Source: Actinomycetota bacterium (GTDB taxonomy: Bacteria > Actinomycetota > Acidimicrobiia > Acidimicrobiales > Ilumatobacteraceae). Taken from it: a stretch of DNA of 64,000 nucleotides. Within the stretch, counting starts at the first letter, position 1. Each line of letters starts with the position of its first letter. The stretch spans positions 62,001 through 126,000 of the forward strand of contig JAPKZY010000105.1 of assembly GCA_026393535.1 (NCBI GenBank). The letters run 5' to 3'. Position numbers and translations under genes: made by a program. Positions 5,768 through 62,791 of the stretch are shown in pieces. Under the pieces are notes generated by a model. That model had not been told where the DNA came from and made no database searches. It worked only from the letters and a program-made list of their open reading frames with translations.

Positions 5768-5773
5768 GGCAAT

Positions 5774-5779
5774 ACGGTA
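5774..5779 (-). promoter_or_regulatory. Leaderless -10 element TACCGT for the carboxylesterase
   Basis: TACCGT, 6 nt, ATG at 5767. It faces away from TAGCGT (5803-5808) of the divergent acyltransferase, and the two start codons are only 48 bp apart. Confidence 0.55.
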
Positions 5780-5802
5780 CCTCTGGTTAGCGGCCAGTTC
5801 AC

Positions 5803-5808
5803 TAGCGT
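5803..5808 (+). promoter_or_regulatory. Leaderless -10 element TAGCGT for the acyltransferase
   Basis: TAGCGT, 7 nt, ATG at 5816. It supports the start at 5816 rather than the longer in-frame ORF that would run antisense into the esterase. Confidence 0.5.
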
Positions 5809-5815
5809 GTGCACT

Positions 5816-18243: not shown

Positions 18244-18249
18244 GCCTAC

Positions 18250-18255
18250 ACGGTA
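18250..18255 (-). promoter_or_regulatory. Leaderless -10 element TACCGT for the hydrolase-tsaC operon
   Basis: TACCGT, 6 nt, ATG at 18243. It overlaps by two bases the plus-strand TAGTCT (18254-18259) that could serve guaB1, so the two promoters may be mutually exclusive. Confidence 0.55.
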
Positions 18256-18270
18256 GTCTCGTCATGCCCT

Positions 18271-23957: not shown

Positions 23958-23963
23958 TCCATC

Positions 23964-23969
23964 ACCATA
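23964..23969 (-). promoter_or_regulatory. Leaderless -10 element TATGGT for the small membrane gene
   Basis: TATGGT, 6 nt, ATG at 23957. Confidence 0.5.
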
Positions 23970-23985
23970 GATGGCGAACAGCCCG

Positions 23986-23991
23986 TAGCGT
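23986..23991 (+). promoter_or_regulatory. Leaderless -10 element TAGCGT for mobA
   Basis: TAGCGT, 7 nt, ATG at 23999; supports this start over the ATG-like codon at 23936. Confidence 0.5.
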
Positions 23992-23998
23992 TGTCATT

Positions 23999-43639: not shown

Positions 43640-43645
43640 CCTCCA

Positions 43646-43651
43646 ACACTA
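43646..43651 (-). promoter_or_regulatory. Leaderless -10 element TAGTGT for GDPD
   Basis: TAGTGT, 6 nt (TGGAGG), GTG at 43639. Confidence 0.5.
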
Positions 43652-43663
43652 GGTGTCTGCTTC

Positions 43664-43669
43664 TATGCT
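43664..43669 (+). promoter_or_regulatory. Leaderless -10 element TATGCT for tatB-tatC-helY
   Basis: TATGCT, 6 nt, GTG at 43676. Its -35 region would lie on the GDPD -10, so the divergent promoters interlock. Confidence 0.5.
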
Positions 43670-43675
43670 GAACGG

Positions 43676-44008
43676 GTGTTCAATATGTCCGGCAGTGAGA
43701 TTATTTTTCTGCTCGTTGCAGGGCTTGTCGTATTAGGACCTGAGCGCCTTCCCGGAGTCATTCGTAGAGGGGGAAAGATTTACGGAGATCTTCGGCGCGC
43801 CGCTAGCGGTTACGAAAAGGAGTTCCGTCAGACATTCTCAGAGCCCATCAACGAACTCAAATCGACAGCTGATCAAATGCGTCATGGTTTCGGTCTTGTT
43901 GACACAGAGCCGTCACCCCCGATGCGACCAGAGCAGGCCGCGTATCCGAAGCCAGACTTTTCAGCAACAGACGTAGATGTTCCAGCGCTCAACACTGACG
44001 ATGAGTGA
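43676..44008 (+). CDS. tatB: Sec-independent translocase protein TatB
   Basis: A TatA/B family protein: N-terminal membrane helix (IIFLLVAGLVVL), the GPERLP hinge, an amphipathic helix with RRAASGYEKEF, and an acidic Pro-rich tail. GPERLP and the long tail favour TatB over TatA. With TatC it binds twin-arginine signals; TatA is not in the window. GTG 43676 is favoured by its -10; ATG 43685 is an alternative. It overlaps tatC by 8 bp. Confidence 0.88.
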   Translation: MFNMSGSEIIFLLVAGLVVLGPERLPGVIRRGGKIYGDLRRAASGYEKEFRQTFSEPINELKSTADQMRHGFGLVDTEPSPPMRPEQAAYPKPDFSATDVDVPALNTDDE

Positions 44009-56689: not shown

Positions 56690-56995
56690 TTAGGAAATAT
56701 TTCGAGAACGCACACCAATGGGTGCAATGAGCCTGAAACCCGCTGCATGGCGTTCTTCTTCAGATTCTCCGCCCCAAAAACCGTATTCACGATTGCTGCG
56801 GGCAAATTCACGACACGTTGTAATGACTGCACATGACACGCACACTTCACGCGCTTGCGCTTCGCGTCGTTCACGAGCTTGGGGCCGTTCCGCAGCAGGA
56901 GGGAAGAAGATGACTGAAAGGCCACGACATTCTGCATCTTCAGACCAAGCAGTATCGTTCCATTCCCGAAAAGAAAATAGTTCCCCTATAGACAT
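56690..56995 (-). CDS. WhiB-family iron-sulfur transcription factor
   Basis: 101 residues. Four cysteines (AECRGL, CVSCAVITTC) bind a [4Fe-4S] cluster, followed by the actinobacterial signature EYGFWGGESEEER and a basic tail. WhiB proteins bind the principal sigma factor and sense redox or NO. The spacing between the first Cys and CVSC is normal. ATG 56995 has GGGGG seven bases upstream and lies behind a palindromic promoter; ATG 57031 falls inside the -10 and is rejected. Confidence 0.92.
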   Translation of the reverse strand: MSIGELFSFREWNDTAWSEDAECRGLSVIFFPPAAERPQARERREAQAREVCVSCAVITTCREFARSNREYGFWGGESEEERHAAGFRLIAPIGVRSRNIS

Positions 56996-57026
56996 TGTTG
57001 CCCCCAACTTCGCCGCGCGTTTCTCC

Positions 57027-57057
57027 ACCATAGCCGAATTGACTCATTAGTCAATTC
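57027..57057 (-). promoter_or_regulatory. whiB promoter with overlapping palindromic operator
   Basis: Minus strand: TTGACT (57049-57054), 16 nt, TATGGT (57027-57032). A perfect inverted repeat, GAATTGACT and AGTCAATTC around a 4-nt centre (57036-57057), covers the -35 box and spacer. It is one of the few conventional -35/-10 promoters here. Confidence 0.6.
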
Positions 57058-57077: not shown

Positions 57078-58130
57078 TTATTCGGAAAATGCGGCCAGAA
57101 CCCCGGCGGCAAAGGCATCCACGTCGTCAGGGGAGGTATCCCACGACGTCATCCAGCGCACTTGGGAGCGGGAAACATCCCAATCCCAAAAGAAATTCCA
57201 GGCCTGAAGGCGGTCTTTAACAGACGCAGGGAGGATGGGGTAGAGGCTGTTGACTGCAGGCGCAGTGATCTGCAAAGAATCGAGATGCGACAGGGCGTTA
57301 TACAAACGAAGCGCCATGTCGTTTGCATGACTGGCGGTCTCAAGCCACAGATTGTCTGTGAGGGCTTCAACAAACTGTGCGGAGATGTAACGCATCTTCG
57401 ACGGCAGTTGCGTGTTTTGCTTCCGAATGAAACCAGATCGGTCAGACGCAACACCCCGACGCAACAAAACAGCTTCGGCTCCGAACATTCCGTTCTTTGT
57501 GCCACCGAATGAGACTGCATCAACTCCTGCTTCAAATGTAAAAGCACGGAATGTAGCTGCATCACCACCGAGTGACGCAGTTGCATTTGAAATTCGAGCG
57601 CCATCGAGATGAACCCTCATGCCGAACGAATGAGCGGTGTCGCATACTTCGCGAATTTCTGCAATGGAATAGACCGTTCCGAGTTCAGTTGCCTGAGTAA
57701 TTGAAACAACTCCAGGCTGCACATGATGCACATTTCCCAAAGCTGATGCAGCAGCGATGATGTGAGCAGGGGTCACTTTTGCGTCAGGGGAGTCAACGTC
57801 TTGCAGTTTGATTCCCAACATATGTTCAGGTGCACCGGTCTCGTCGACATGGATATGAGCCCATTCACTGCAGATCACAGACTCGGCAGCACGTAACAAA
57901 CTTCCGAGCGCAACAATGTTTGAACCAGTGCCGTTGAAGGTGAACAGAACGTCGACATCAGCACCGCATAATTCTTGGAACAGCGTCGTTGCGCGTTTCG
58001 TAATTTCATCTCCGCCGTAAGCCATGACGTGCCCAGAGTTAGCCCGCTCAATAGCCGAGACGTACCGGGGGTGAGCGCCGCTGAAATTGTCGCTTGCAAA
58101 GAATCGTTCAGGTGCGGGAGGAAATGACAC
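57078..58130 (-). CDS. ltaE: Low-specificity L-threonine aldolase
   Basis: Fold-type I PLP enzyme, 350 aa, splitting threonine (or allo-threonine) into glycine and acetaldehyde. Family features: ASDNFSGAHP near the start, AYGGDEITKRATTLFQ, the VHLDGARISNA Asp, and the PLP lysine in SFGGTKNGMFG. As a glycine source it connects to the gcv module downstream. GTG start with TAGTCT seven bases upstream. Confidence 0.9.
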   Translation of the reverse strand: MSFPPAPERFFASDNFSGAHPRYVSAIERANSGHVMAYGGDEITKRATTLFQELCGADVDVLFTFNGTGSNIVALGSLLRAAESVICSEWAHIHVDETGAPEHMLGIKLQDVDSPDAKVTPAHIIAAASALGNVHHVQPGVVSITQATELGTVYSIAEIREVCDTAHSFGMRVHLDGARISNATASLGGDAATFRAFTFEAGVDAVSFGGTKNGMFGAEAVLLRRGVASDRSGFIRKQNTQLPSKMRYISAQFVEALTDNLWLETASHANDMALRLYNALSHLDSLQITAPAVNSLYPILPASVKDRLQAWNFFWDWDVSRSQVRWMTSWDTSPDDVDAFAAGVLAAFSE

Positions 58131-58137
58131 AACAATC

Positions 58138-58143
58138 AGACTA
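58138..58143 (-). promoter_or_regulatory. Leaderless -10 element TAGTCT for threonine aldolase
   Basis: TAGTCT, 7 nt, GTG at 58130. Its -35 region falls on the start codon of the divergent gene. Confidence 0.5.
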
Positions 58144-58150
58144 CCTGTCG

Positions 58151-58156
58151 TACTAT
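58151..58156 (+). promoter_or_regulatory. Leaderless -10 element TACTAT for the zinc-finger-like gene
   Basis: TACTAT, 6 nt, ATG at 58163. Its -35 region falls on the threonine aldolase start. Confidence 0.5.
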
Positions 58157-58162
58157 TTCGTC

Positions 58163-58540
58163 ATGACGATATCCAAGGACACACCAGGGCAGCAGGAAAT
58201 CGATAGGAGATGTCGATGGTGCCGGCATGTTCTGGCGTCGTCAACAGGCCCTGGTCGACCAAAAGAATTCTGCAGCCAGCGATGTCGTCAATGGGACTGG
58301 GTATCGCGCCAACGCGCATCAGAGCTTGCATTATCGGAAAACGAACTGGTGATGACACGCGACGAACTTGATGCACTGAAGGACCAGATCTATGTCTTGC
58401 ATTGCGCTCTGCACGACGTACAAACAGATCTCGCATCACCACGCCAAACCAAGGAAACCTTGCTGGAGATGCTTGGCTGGCTGATGCAGGCAGCCGAACC
58501 CATTGCCGCCGCCTCATTGACTCCCGCTATACGCCCATAA
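58163..58540 (+). CDS. Small zinc-finger-like protein of unknown function
   Basis: 125 residues. An N-terminal CRWCRHVL...GRPKEFCSQRCRQW segment gives C-x2-C and C-x3-C pairs, a likely zinc finger of the MYM/FLYWCH-like CxxC...CSxxCR style seen in actinobacterial DNA-binding proteins, followed by a long coiled coil (SELALSENELVMTRDELDAL) and a short tail. A regulatory or DNA-associated role is inferred. Leaderless start. Confidence 0.65.
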   Translation: MTISKDTPGQQEIDRRCRWCRHVLASSTGPGRPKEFCSQRCRQWDWVSRQRASELALSENELVMTRDELDALKDQIYVLHCALHDVQTDLASPRQTKETLLEMLGWLMQAAEPIAAASLTPAIRP

Positions 58541-58633: not shown

Positions 58634-59884
58634 ATGCCCATTGCACAACTCGGTCCAGGACAAACTGCGCACGCCATTCTTGAACATCTGGAATCACTAC
58701 GCACGAACGATGTGCGCTGGCGTGACGGCCGGTGTTTCACTCTTGCCTACAGCGCCGGGCCAGACGTGCTGGCGCTTGCTGAAGAGTCATATCGTCGCTT
58801 CTCTGGTGAGAACGCCCTGAACACCAGTGCATTTCCTTCCCTGCGAACCATGCAACAAGAGGTCGTAGACATAGTCTCTGGCTGGACCCACGGCAATGAC
58901 ATCACAGCAGGCTTTATGACCTCAGGTGGCACCGAGAGCCTCGTGCTGGCAGTACGGTCCGCTCGCAAGCGTGCAGAGCGTGAGCGACGCAACCTAAAGC
59001 GAATGAACATGGTTCTCCCCTCGTCTGCACACGCTGCGTTTGAAAAGGGCGCTGACTACTTCGATGTTGAGAGTCGCCGCGTACCTGTCGGTGCTGACTG
59101 GAAAGCAGACGTGAATGCACTGCGCGATGCATGTGACGCAGAGACAATTCTGATTGTTGGATCTGCACCGCAGTACCCGCAGGGCGTCATCGACCCAATC
59201 TCTGAAATCGCTGAGATAGCTGCAGAGCGCAATATCAACTGTCATGTCGATGCGTGCATGGGCGGAGTAACACTCACATACCTTGAACGACTGGGGGAAC
59301 CGATTGCGCCGTGGGATTTCCGATGCAACGGCGTCACATCGATCTCCGTCGATCTACACAAATACGGTTACACCTCGAAGGGCTCAGGCGTTCTTCTCCA
59401 TCGCAACAAAACATTGCGCAGCGACCAAACTTTTATGACTGATAATTGGCTCGGCGGAATGTACGGTTCATCCGGAATTTTGGGAACAAAGTCTGGCGGC
59501 CCAATTGCCTCGTCATGGTCCGTGATGCATTATCTCGGCGATGACGGTTACGAACGCGTCACACAAAGCGCGCGAGAATCCACTATGCGTATTTACAAAC
59601 ATCTTGAATCACATCCTGATTTAGAAGTTCGTGGACTCCCCGCTTCCACTCTCGTCTCATTTGGCGCAAAGGACCCAATTCGTCATGACGTATTTGCCAT
59701 CGCGGACCGTCTCATTGCAGCTGGTTGGTATCTCGACAAGCAGACTCCCCCTGCCAGCATTCATCTCACGGTGAACGCAGTTCATGCTCCCCTTGTCGAT
59801 GAATTCCTATCGGACCTCGATTCAGTTATTCAGCAGGTTGGTTCAGAAAAAGGATCAAGCGGCTCATACGCCACAACAGAATGA
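58634..59884 (+). CDS. PLP-dependent decarboxylase/lyase (group II; sphingosine-phosphate-lyase-like)
   Basis: 416 residues, fold type I. PLP phosphate loop TSGGTESLVLAVRSAR, the HVDACMGG Asp, and the internal aldimine lysine in SISVDLHKYGYTSKGSG. This set fits the group II decarboxylase family, and the HKYGYTSKG spacing is like sphingosine-1-phosphate-lyase-type enzymes found in bacteria. Substrate unknown. It lies between threonine aldolase and the gcv genes. Confidence 0.85.
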   Translation: MPIAQLGPGQTAHAILEHLESLRTNDVRWRDGRCFTLAYSAGPDVLALAEESYRRFSGENALNTSAFPSLRTMQQEVVDIVSGWTHGNDITAGFMTSGGTESLVLAVRSARKRAERERRNLKRMNMVLPSSAHAAFEKGADYFDVESRRVPVGADWKADVNALRDACDAETILIVGSAPQYPQGVIDPISEIAEIAAERNINCHVDACMGGVTLTYLERLGEPIAPWDFRCNGVTSISVDLHKYGYTSKGSGVLLHRNKTLRSDQTFMTDNWLGGMYGSSGILGTKSGGPIASSWSVMHYLGDDGYERVTQSARESTMRIYKHLESHPDLEVRGLPASTLVSFGAKDPIRHDVFAIADRLIAAGWYLDKQTPPASIHLTVNAVHAPLVDEFLSDLDSVIQQVGSEKGSSGSYATTE

Positions 59885-59922
59885 CCCCTCCCCCTTGCGC
59901 GCAGACTACGGTATAGAAAAAC

Positions 59923-60095
59923 GTCTACTTGGGAGAGCGTGTGCCGGCAACGGTTCACCGCCGAAGGAGCAACCACCCCGGAATCTCTCAGGCACAGGGA
60001 CCAGGTAGACATCGAACGCTGGAAAGAGAGGGCTTGCCCTCCACCGACGGGGAAAGCCATTTCAATGGCGAAGCTCTCAGGTACAAAAGACAGCG
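59923..60095 (+). ncRNA. Tandem glycine riboswitch
   Basis: Two consecutive glycine aptamers. The first P1 stem is GTCTAC (59923-59928) with GTAGAC (60005-60010), enclosing GGGAGAGC and the conserved CGCCGAAGGAGCAA and CTCTCAGG blocks. The second has CGCTG (60017-60021) with CAGCG (60091-60095), enclosing GGAAAGAGAGGGC, CACCGACGGGGAAAGCC and CTCTCAGG. The tandem layout and position 28 nt before the gcvP start match known gcv riboswitches that turn on glycine cleavage when glycine is high. Confidence 0.95.
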
Positions 60096-60122: not shown

Positions 60123-62791
60123 ATGACCTCTACCCCACGCTCACTCACGTCGCCTGAATTTCACGCTGACCATTTTGCTCATCGTCACCTTGGACTCAAC
60201 GACACCGATAGAGCAACCATGTTGGCGGCTGTTGGTTTCAAGAGTTCGGAAGAACTTCTCGACGCAACAATCCCCTCTTCGATTCGTCTGCGCACTTCTA
60301 TGGCGCTCGCATCGCCCTTGACAGAATCCGAAGTTCTGCCAGTACTGAAATCCAAATTCGCAGCTGATGTCCATCGCACGTCATTTATCGGTCAGGGTTA
60401 TTACAACACCATCACACCTCCAGTCATCAAGAGAAACGTTTTAGAAAATCCAGCGTGGTACACCGCGTACACGCCATATCAACCAGAAATTAGTCAAGGC
60501 CGCTTAGAAGCAATCCTCAACTTCCAAACAATGGTGTCCGAACTCACGGGGCTTCCGTTAGCGAACGGTTCTCTCCTTGACGAAGCAACTGCAGTCGCCG
60601 AAGCAGTCACCATGGCTCACAGAGTTAGTAAGTCAAAATCGGATTCAGTTTTCGTAGACAGCAACACTCACCCGCAATCACTTGCAGTTCTCTCAACACG
60701 CTTAGAGCCAATCGGTATCGCAATTCATTTAGGAGATATATCCACGTGTGATGCCTTGCTCTATTTCGCGATCGTTGTGTCAATGCCAGGAAGCGACGGC
60801 CATATCCGTTCATCTTCTTCTCTCACAGCCCTTACCGCACAAGCCAGGGAAAATAAGGCAATCTCAATCGCTATTACAGATCTTCTCTCCTGCGCTCTCT
60901 TCACCCCTCCTGGACAACTTGGTTTCGATATTGCAATTGGATCCTCCCAACGCTTCGGAGTGCCAATGGGCTTCGGTGGACCCCATGCTGCATTCATGGC
61001 AACCCGCGACGAACATGCGCGCGCACTACCAGGACGTTTGGTCGGTGTTAGTACCGACACAGAAGGTCGGCCAGCATTGCGATTGGCTCTGCAGACTCGC
61101 GAACAACACATTCGTCGCGAAAAAGCCACGAGCAATATCTGTACCGCTCAGGTTTCAATATTCGATTGATCTCAGATACATCGTTCTCACTGAGCGTCGA
61201 CGAGACAACTACAGAAGAGATTGTTTGTGATTTATTGAAATCACTAAATGTCTCTGTTGTACAGGCAGCCAAGGACTCAAGTGCCGAATCACTGTTCCGC
61301 ACAGACTCATATATGAAACAAGCTGTGTTTCACCGCTATCACACAGAACACGAAATGCTTCGATATTTACGAGGTTTAGCCGATAAGGATCTCGCTCTTG
61401 ATCGCACAATGATTCCTTTGGGATCATGCACAATGAAACTGAATTCAACCACCGAGATGGAACCTGTCACGTGGCCAGAGTTTTCATCACTTCATCCGTA
61501 CGTGCCGGCTGATGAATCACTCGGTATTCGAACAGTGCTTGCTGAACTAGAGGCCATGCTGGTCGAGATCACGGGATACGACGCAGTAAGCCTTCAACCA
61601 AACGCTGGAAGTCAAGGTGAGTTTGCTGGGCTGATGGCAATTCGTGCCTACCACCGCTCTCGAGGCGACCTTCAACGCACAATATGTCTTATTCCCTCTA
61701 GCGCGCATGGCACGAATGCAGCAAGCGCCGTGATGGCAGGGATGTCAGTCGTTGTGGTCGCCTGCGATGAAAACGGAAATGTGGACGTAGCCGACTTAAC
61801 CAACAAAGCTGATCTTGCAGGCGACAAGCTCGCAGCAATTATGGTGACCTACCCATCGACGCACGGTGTATTCGAAGAAGCAATATCTGATATTTGCGAC
61901 ATCATCCATCAGCATGGTGGCCAGGTGTATGTCGACGGAGCCAATCTCAACGCTCTAGTTGGTACAGCCCAGCCCGGAAAATTTGGCGCTGACGTCAGCC
62001 ACCTGAACCTTCATAAGACATTCTGTATCCCTCACGGTGGTGGCGGACCAGGCGTCGGACCTGTCGCTGTTCGCAGTCATCTCATACCGTTTCTTCCAAG
62101 TGACCCATTGTCGCCATCATCAGGAATTGGTCCTGTGTCCGCTGCGAATTTCGGTTCTGCAAGTATCTGCGCCATTCCGTGGGTGTACATCTCGATGATG
62201 AGTGCAGATGGCTTGCTTCAAGCAACAGCAGATGCAATTTTGTCGGCCAATTACGTAGCGCGCCGACTCAATTCGTCCTACCCAGTTCTGTACACGGGCG
62301 CAAACGGCACCATCGCACACGAATGCATTCTTAACGTAGGTGAAGTGATTAAGGGCTCAGGACTGTTGATCGATGATATTGCTAAGCGACTAATGGATTA
62401 CGGGCTTCACGCCCCAACAATGAGTTTTCCAGTAGCCAATACTCTGATGGTTGAACCAACTGAAAGCGAGTCGCTTGCTGAAGTTGATCGATTCTGTGAC
62501 GCAATGATCAGTATCCGTCACGAAATAGACATGGTTCTATCCGGCGCAATCACTGCTGAAGAGTCCGTTCTCCACCATGCACCTCACACGGTTGAGGATA
62601 TTGCGGGAGATTGGAAACGTTCGTACAGCAGAGCTTCTGCGCTGTACCCACTCGCTCATCTCAGATCACGCAGCTATTACCCTTCAGTTTCTCGTATCGA
62701 CGCAGCCTATGGAGATCGAAATCTGGTGTGTACCTGCGCACCGATTGAGCAGTACGCCATCAGTCTGGAAAACGCTACGGTGGGCTCGTGA
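60123..62791 (+). pseudogene. gcvP: Glycine dehydrogenase (decarboxylating), P-protein, broken by out-of-frame internal deletion
   Basis: The first part (60123-61169, 348 aa) follows single-chain GcvP through FGGPHAAFMATRDEHARAL and [20 protein letters not shown], then stops. The second (61166-62791, 541 aa, TTG start overlapping that stop) resumes in another frame at [17 protein letters not shown] and includes the PLP lysine in [15 protein letters not shown]. In E. coli GcvP about 71 residues separate these points, here absent, so about 213 bp plus a frameshift are lost near 61150. The break is not at the normal gcvPA/gcvPB split. Either a real inactivation or an amplification/assembly error. 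Confidence 0.85.

Follow-up and report, generated by a model that had tools for sequence, protein, structure and literature searches.

A candidate operator centred on the start codon of a leaderless zinc-knuckle gene is conserved in Acidimicrobiia

Actinobacterial leaderless promoters of the TANNNT type place the −10 box 6–7 nt before the start codon. Regulators made from leaderless mRNAs are known elsewhere. The C proteins of restriction-modification (R-M) systems are small autoregulators with leaderless mRNAs and inverted-repeat operators by their own promoter, and their −35 hexamer overlaps the operator that lies closest to the C start (PMC4824078, in the part of that source used here). In the Cro/CI region of phage PY54 the cI and cro mRNAs are leaderless and a single Cro operator lies between the two repressor genes, at a distance of up to 40 bp from the cro promoter and off the cro start codon (PMC4488713, likewise used in part). 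Bidirectional promoters (Warman, Grainger; PMC12825309, in part) have opposed −10 elements too close for two polymerases; those of Warman et al. 2026 share one −10, with starts around or within it that are mostly 18 bp apart (10 and 23 bp are common).

We analysed a 64,000-nt window (50.9% GC) of a 1.96-Mb genome in 113 contigs, which is taken as a member of the class Acidimicrobiia. The window contains a divergent gene pair, an L-threonine aldolase gene and a small gene here called znf, with the following features:

57078–58130, minus strand: L-threonine aldolase gene, GTG start at 58128–58130, predicted leaderless (Pfam Beta_elim_lyase, E 5e-45)
58138–58143, minus strand (read from 58143 down to 58138): aldolase −10 box TAGTCT, 7 nt from the start
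58151–58156, plus strand: znf −10 box TACTAT, 6 nt from the start
58156–58171, no strand: candidate operator, a 16-bp dyad (TTTCGTCATGACGATA) with the znf start codon at its centre and arms that pair at 7 of 8 positions
58163–58540, plus strand: znf gene, ATG start at 58163–58165, coding for a 125-aa Cys4 zinc-knuckle and helical protein of an unnamed family
58634–59884, plus strand: PLP-dependent decarboxylase gene (Pfam Pyridoxal_deC, E 2e-21)
59920–60013, plus strand: aptamer of a glycine riboswitch, ahead of gcvP (Rfam RF00504, 60.5 bits against a gathering threshold of 32)

The aldolase product is homologous over nearly its full length to the solved L-threonine aldolases in the PDB (best 5vye, E 3e-71, residues 8–344). 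A WhiB-family gene (56690–57031; Pfam Whib, E 1.5e-13) adjoins the aldolase 3' end on the same strand. Downstream of znf, the decarboxylase gene has a leaderless-type signature of its own (TACAGT at 6 nt). The window's gcvP is in two overlapping frames, 60123–61169 and 61166–62791, reflecting either a genuine split or a frameshift in the assembly; gcvP of most close relatives is a single open frame of ~960–1070 aa. This neighbourhood of decarboxylase, glycine riboswitch and gcvP makes a znf role near glycine and threonine metabolism an attractive idea.

A sequence-only reading of the window had described interlocked divergent leaderless promoters between the aldolase and znf starts, and sequence and conservation bear this out. 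The two start codons are separated by 32 bp and the −10 boxes by 7 bp, at the positions originally given. As had also been proposed, each −35 region lies on the other gene's first codons: spacers of 17 bp place them at 58128–58133 (the aldolase start codon) and 58161–58166 (the znf start codon), and neither resembles TTGACA. Both genes have TANNNT at 6–7 nt, the distance found in leaderless TANNNT promoters of actinobacteria, to which the dyad on the start codon is an addition. Leaderless-type promoters are frequent in the window, since 17 of 270 candidate ATG/GTG starts from a rough set of 63 ORFs have TANNNT at distance 6 and seven have it at distance 7, against ~0.7 per distance outside 6–9.

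Both TANNNT boxes are present in all 26 loci of the genus (25 genomes, one with two loci). The forward box lies at distance 6 in every one of them, and the reverse box at distance 7 in 23, 8 in two and 6 in one. The inner three bases vary, with 11 forward and 12 reverse variants, and retention of TANNNT through this variation is direct evidence of selection on both boxes. The gap is 32 bp in 12 loci and 33 bp in 14, and is held at aldolase identities from 100 down to 59%. At the sequence level the comparison thereby confirms two real divergent leaderless promoters in the 32-bp gap; transcripts presumably start where the TANNNT signature predicts.

Two further loci from genomes assigned to the genus fall outside the 26: L115 (genome G007), where a 33-bp gap is possible only with another in-frame GTG, and L094 (second contig of G020), which has a 58-bp gap and no reverse box and is nearly identical to a locus of G036, from another genus. 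In L103 no znf start was found. Three records titled 'Bifidobacterium breve MAG' (L061, L069, L082) contain the locus at 91–99% identity, so that these titles look wrong. In other genera of the family the divergent pair is separated by ~41–86 bp, depending on the start chosen, or by 0.9–3.6 kb. The divergent pairing is thus the wider condition, and its tight interlocking belongs to the level of the genus.

Similar layouts had been cited at four other places in the window. Those at 43640–43675, 5768–5815 and 23958–23998 have both boxes at 6–7 nt. At 18244–18270 the hexamers do overlap by two bases, as described, but 11 nt separate the forward hexamer from the IMPDH ATG, and that side is not leaderless by the 6–7 nt rule. 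The label GDPD/tatB for the pair at 43640–43675 stands for GDPD and is unconfirmed for tatB, as the gene at 43676 gave no Pfam match at E 0.001. Two further divergent pairs share the layout, 13691/13768 (gap 76 bp) and 35192/35254 (gap 61 bp). Recurrence of the layout at unrelated pairs is expected in a compact genome rich in leaderless genes.

The aldolase–znf promoters resemble bidirectional promoters in having opposed −10 elements too close for two polymerases. They differ in that each direction has a −10 of its own, in the 33 bp between the predicted starts and in the extra dyad, and they fall outside the definition of a bidirectional promoter by a shared −10 (PMC12825309, as given in the part used). 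The element most likely to give regulation at this locus is the dyad on the znf start codon, which the sequence-only reading had not mentioned.

Alignment of relatives gives the dyad as TTTCGTCATGACGAAA, an inverted repeat of 16 bp with the znf start codon at its centre; the window copy has one arm mismatch. It spans −7 to +9 of the predicted znf start and ~−26 to −41 of the aldolase start. The window contains three matches to the dyad with up to 3 mismatches against 0.55 expected, a number reached by one of 100 shuffles. The 12-bp core TCGTCATGACGA occurs a single time in the 1.96-Mb genome, at the znf start. With up to 2 mismatches in 14 the same genome has 19 sites compared with 10 for the reversed control, so weak dyad sites are only mildly in excess.

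Conservation was examined in 132 znf loci, 57 from relatives and 75 from a draw of 296 genomes of the class, in which znf was found in 106 genomes (five of these, G112, G149, G194, G317 and G322, were left out). One gene was cut by a contig end (L096), leaving 131 usable loci; six were duplicates, leaving 125 distinct loci; and 10 with fewer than 4/5 right-arm matches to TGACG were dropped, leaving 115. With the start picked by the right arm alone, an exact CGTCA lies 0–4 bp left of TGACG in 92 of the 115 loci. The spacer is 0 in 41 loci, 2 in 21, 3 in 27, 1 in two and 4 in one. At each single offset from 5 to 39, CGTCA occurs in 0–2 loci. Six of seven control words score 0–1 in place of CGTCA; the seventh, GTCAC, overlaps the motif and scores 51. 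Several of the 23 loci that lack an exact left core differ from it by one base. Loci with spacer 0 start with ATG, and those with spacers 2–3 mostly with GTG; if the TGACG half-site doubles as the beginning of the frame, half-site spacing would decide between the two. A spacer range of 0 to 4 between lineages is odd for a rigid dimer.

The right arm, which is coding, is held at the DNA level, as indicated by codon use. Codon 2 is Thr in 92 of 103 loci when the start is picked by the left arm alone, and it is ACG in 85 of these 92, compared with 126 of 435 later Thr codons in the same genes (p 5e-31); Lys-3 is AAA in 51/51, against 106/299 Lys codons in the rest of the genes (p 8e-21), with p-values that treat related loci as independent. 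The symmetry is limited to the 5-bp core: over the outer three arm positions complementarity is 190 against 185.7 expected, a value matched or exceeded by 369 of 2,000 shuffles, and thus shows no covariation. The motif is particular to znf among the leaderless-type starts of the window, with ATGACG at one of 30, the znf start itself. Two loci (L098 in G033 and L114 in G044) have a dyad ATG that opens a short frame with a stop after about a dozen codons, and this short frame comes close to a second start in frame with znf or overlaps it; this is either a leaderless upstream frame or an assembly indel.

Several distributions separate znf from the aldolase gene as the partner of the dyad. Within the window's family znf often has the aldolase gene as its divergent neighbour; outside the family this is mostly not so. 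Among 100 genomes (our own and relatives), znf was found in 54, and the exact spacer-0 14-mer is present in 23 of these compared with 0 of the 46 others; 19 of the 23 carry it at the znf start. Spacers 1–3 give one exact match each in four of the 46 genomes (G005, G030, G086, G094). In G062, a complete-looking genome, znf and the nearest aldolase relative are 0.6 Mb apart. The dyad is frequent in the 75 class loci, and an aldolase gene is visible in four of them, all in the window's family, within the ~350 bases covered upstream. At the level of these comparisons the site is shown to follow the znf gene and not the aldolase. An autoregulator's operator would be expected to be a conserved dyad tied to the gene of the regulator, and the dyad here is tied to znf at 92 of 115 loci.

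Two groups of homologues depart from the pattern. The four loci of genus g129 (family f60) have His in place of Cys as the fourth zinc ligand, and at their starts the dyad is replaced by GTTTCAT-N7-ATGAAAC, with full 7-bp arms in three loci and 6-bp arms in the fourth. This joint change of repeat and zinc ligand is suggestive of the znf protein as the binder. Distant znf relatives also occur in f99, an actinobacterial family with large genomes that we guess to be mycobacterial; the 11 f99 loci examined have no dyad.

The znf product gave no match to Pfam or NCBIfam at E 0.001. C17, C20, C37 and C41 are invariant in 40 aligned sequences, in which G31-R32 and R42-Q43 are also kept. An AlphaFold2 model of moderate confidence (mean pLDDT 77, pTM 0.48) begins with low-confidence residues and contains a small Cys4 region as well as helices at 39–54, 59–90 and 97–119. 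Foldseek with this model returned nothing at E 0.001 in the PDB or a viral library, and hence no recognised DNA-binding fold at that model confidence. PadR regulators combine a winged helix with a helical dimerisation domain at the C terminus. Helices 61–124 of the znf model align with PadR 5x11 (Z 7.5, rmsd 3.0 over 64 residues), a match within helical-hairpin noise; many other hairpins align as well. Sequence searches gave a weak match to phrog_2308 in PHROGs (E 4e-5, function unknown), a Polyhomeotic-like zinc finger as best PDB match (E 0.03), a distant relative among plasmids (one hypothetical protein, on a Tsukamurella plasmid) and no match among phages. No known name for the family was found in Pfam, NCBIfam, PHROGs, the PDB, plasmids or phages.

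Exact sites away from znf were surveyed in 200 genomes of the family, 140 of them with gcvP, and were taken from among the matches listed. Among these matches, exact TTCGTCATGACGAA lies in gcvP in at least seven genomes of at least four genera, at several different positions: ~codon 25 in G053, G704 and G711 (genus g23), ~codon 54 in G060 and G657 (g4), far inside the gene in G007 (g1) and at the gcvP start in G039 (g9). From letter frequencies, ~0.0002–0.0015 exact copies would be predicted over the gcvP genes of all 140 genomes together and 0.2–1.9 over the 200 whole genomes; this estimate, obtained once the sites had been seen, takes no account of codon use or relatedness. Twenty non-znf exact sites were read; ten encode Arg-His-Asp-Glu in frame, six encode Val-Met-Thr-Lys, and the remaining four are at gene ends or outside long frames. 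No recurrent site around gcvP was present in 30 gcvP loci examined. The exact sites in gcvP are either coding coincidence or a regulon, and from the sites listed a znf regulator may reach gcvP.

In the window itself, a one-mismatch site at 59678–59693 falls inside the coding part of the decarboxylase gene, where it reads Ile-Arg-His-Asp, and is not retained across the genus. Close by in that gene, two g2 genomes carry an exact copy (L321, L333). G679 and G689 have an exact site though znf was found in neither. In g23 (L318:1177, L327:923, L335:1030) the 16-mer core is at a gene end, which in L318 and L335 is ~2.7 kb away from znf. There it forms part of longer palindromes, and although the outer arms of these vary, they remain complementary. 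These palindromes may be hairpin terminators, second operators or both.

We lean towards the reading that the dyad is an operator bound by znf's own Cys4 product, for autorepression and, in this genus, for control of the aldolase as well. The candidate operator core, CGTCA-N0..4-TGACG, would be superimposed on the znf promoter and start: the stretch from the −10 box to the start codon contains its left arm, and the opening codons make up its right arm. The dyad would be occupied by a DNA-binding protein in dimeric form, most likely the znf Cys4 product joined through its helices. The bound dimer would block open-complex formation or early elongation at the leaderless znf start, and the protein would thereby limit its own level. 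The aldolase promoter of this genus appears to be placed so that the dyad covers ~−26 to −41 of the aldolase, in which case one bound protein would also control L-threonine aldolase, by either repression or help. What we infer here is that a protein binds the dyad, that the znf product is that protein, and which sign the regulation takes. A broader proposal, which we make tentatively and consider slightly less likely than not, is that znf represents a new Acidimicrobiia family of helical Cys4 zinc-knuckle autorepressors whose operator is fused with a leaderless start, is shared with the aldolase in one genus and possibly also acts on gcvP.

Three other explanations were weighed. The sequence-only reading had called the locus a natural toggle, in which regulation would come from mutual exclusion at the interlocked aldolase and znf promoters and the dyad would be incidental. 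Steric exclusion of two polymerases at −10s only 7 bp apart is physically reasonable, and the constancy of the 32–33 bp gap through the 26 genus loci fits such a scheme. A toggle, which requires mutual repression and two stable states, is nonetheless unsupported, because exclusion alone gives no memory and no mutual repression, and because the basal bidirectional promoters tested in E. coli do not compete: in the one direct test found, all five are reported to have basal activity too low for competition, with the other side repressed only when one direction was strongly activated (PMC12825309, in the part used). The dyad moreover persists in other genera of the family despite their gaps of ~41–86 bp or 0.9–3.6 kb, and similar layouts at unrelated gene pairs suggest compactness; we regard this account as highly improbable. 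It is also improbable, if less so, that the locus consists of ordinary compact divergent promoters with a lineage-specific initiation context (discriminator, downstream codons) that is symmetric by chance. In its favour, leaderless-type starts are common in the window and the outer arms lack covariation. Against it, the CGTCA/TGACG inversion is kept as the spacer goes from 0 to 2 or 3 and the start codon from ATG to mostly GTG, and none of the 29 other leaderless-type starts listed in the window carries the motif.

The dyad could also be a real operator for an unlinked regulator, in which case the znf product, perhaps a small protein that responds to zinc or redox state, would be only a target and would not itself bind DNA. 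Such an arrangement would account for the absence of a recognised DNA-binding fold in the znf protein, for the finding of znf in only 106 of 296 class genomes and for the existence of znf relatives that have no dyad (f99). We consider it rather doubtful, since one strong site per genome, at znf, in many genera would be an unparsimonious outcome for such a regulator, none of the 46 relatives where znf was not found has an exact spacer-0 site, and the sole lineage with an altered zinc ligand also has an altered repeat.

The analysis puts a concrete candidate site of regulation, open to experimental test, in place of a speculative promoter toggle. Should the proposed binding be real, operator, transcript start and start codon lie on the same bases and have been held there across much of a class, and an unnamed zinc-knuckle family, with its distant relatives in f99, gains a first function. 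Among the matches listed in a literature search on leaderless genes with operators, palindromes, or divergent or bidirectional promoters, a dyad on a start codon is not described, as judged by titles and the starts of abstracts. A full-text literature search for Acidimicrobi with leaderless returned nothing on gene regulation, as judged by title and abstract start.

The proposed system shares with the R-M C proteins a small autoregulator, a leaderless mRNA and an inverted-repeat operator by the regulator's own promoter (PMC4824078, in the part used). The C proteins are helix-turn-helix proteins with an operator at the −35 hexamer; the znf protein has a Cys4 motif, no helix-turn-helix found and no Pfam or NCBIfam match, and its dyad lies at −7 to +9, not at −35, so that it is not of the C-protein type. 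PY54 shares the leaderless genes and the single operator (PMC4488713, in part), and differs in that its regulators are phage repressors and its operator lies off cro's own start codon, whereas the znf dyad is centred on that of znf. On these points of likeness, and as far as the parts of the two sources used here extend, the R-M C proteins and the PY54 Cro region appear to be the nearest working analogues of the znf locus.
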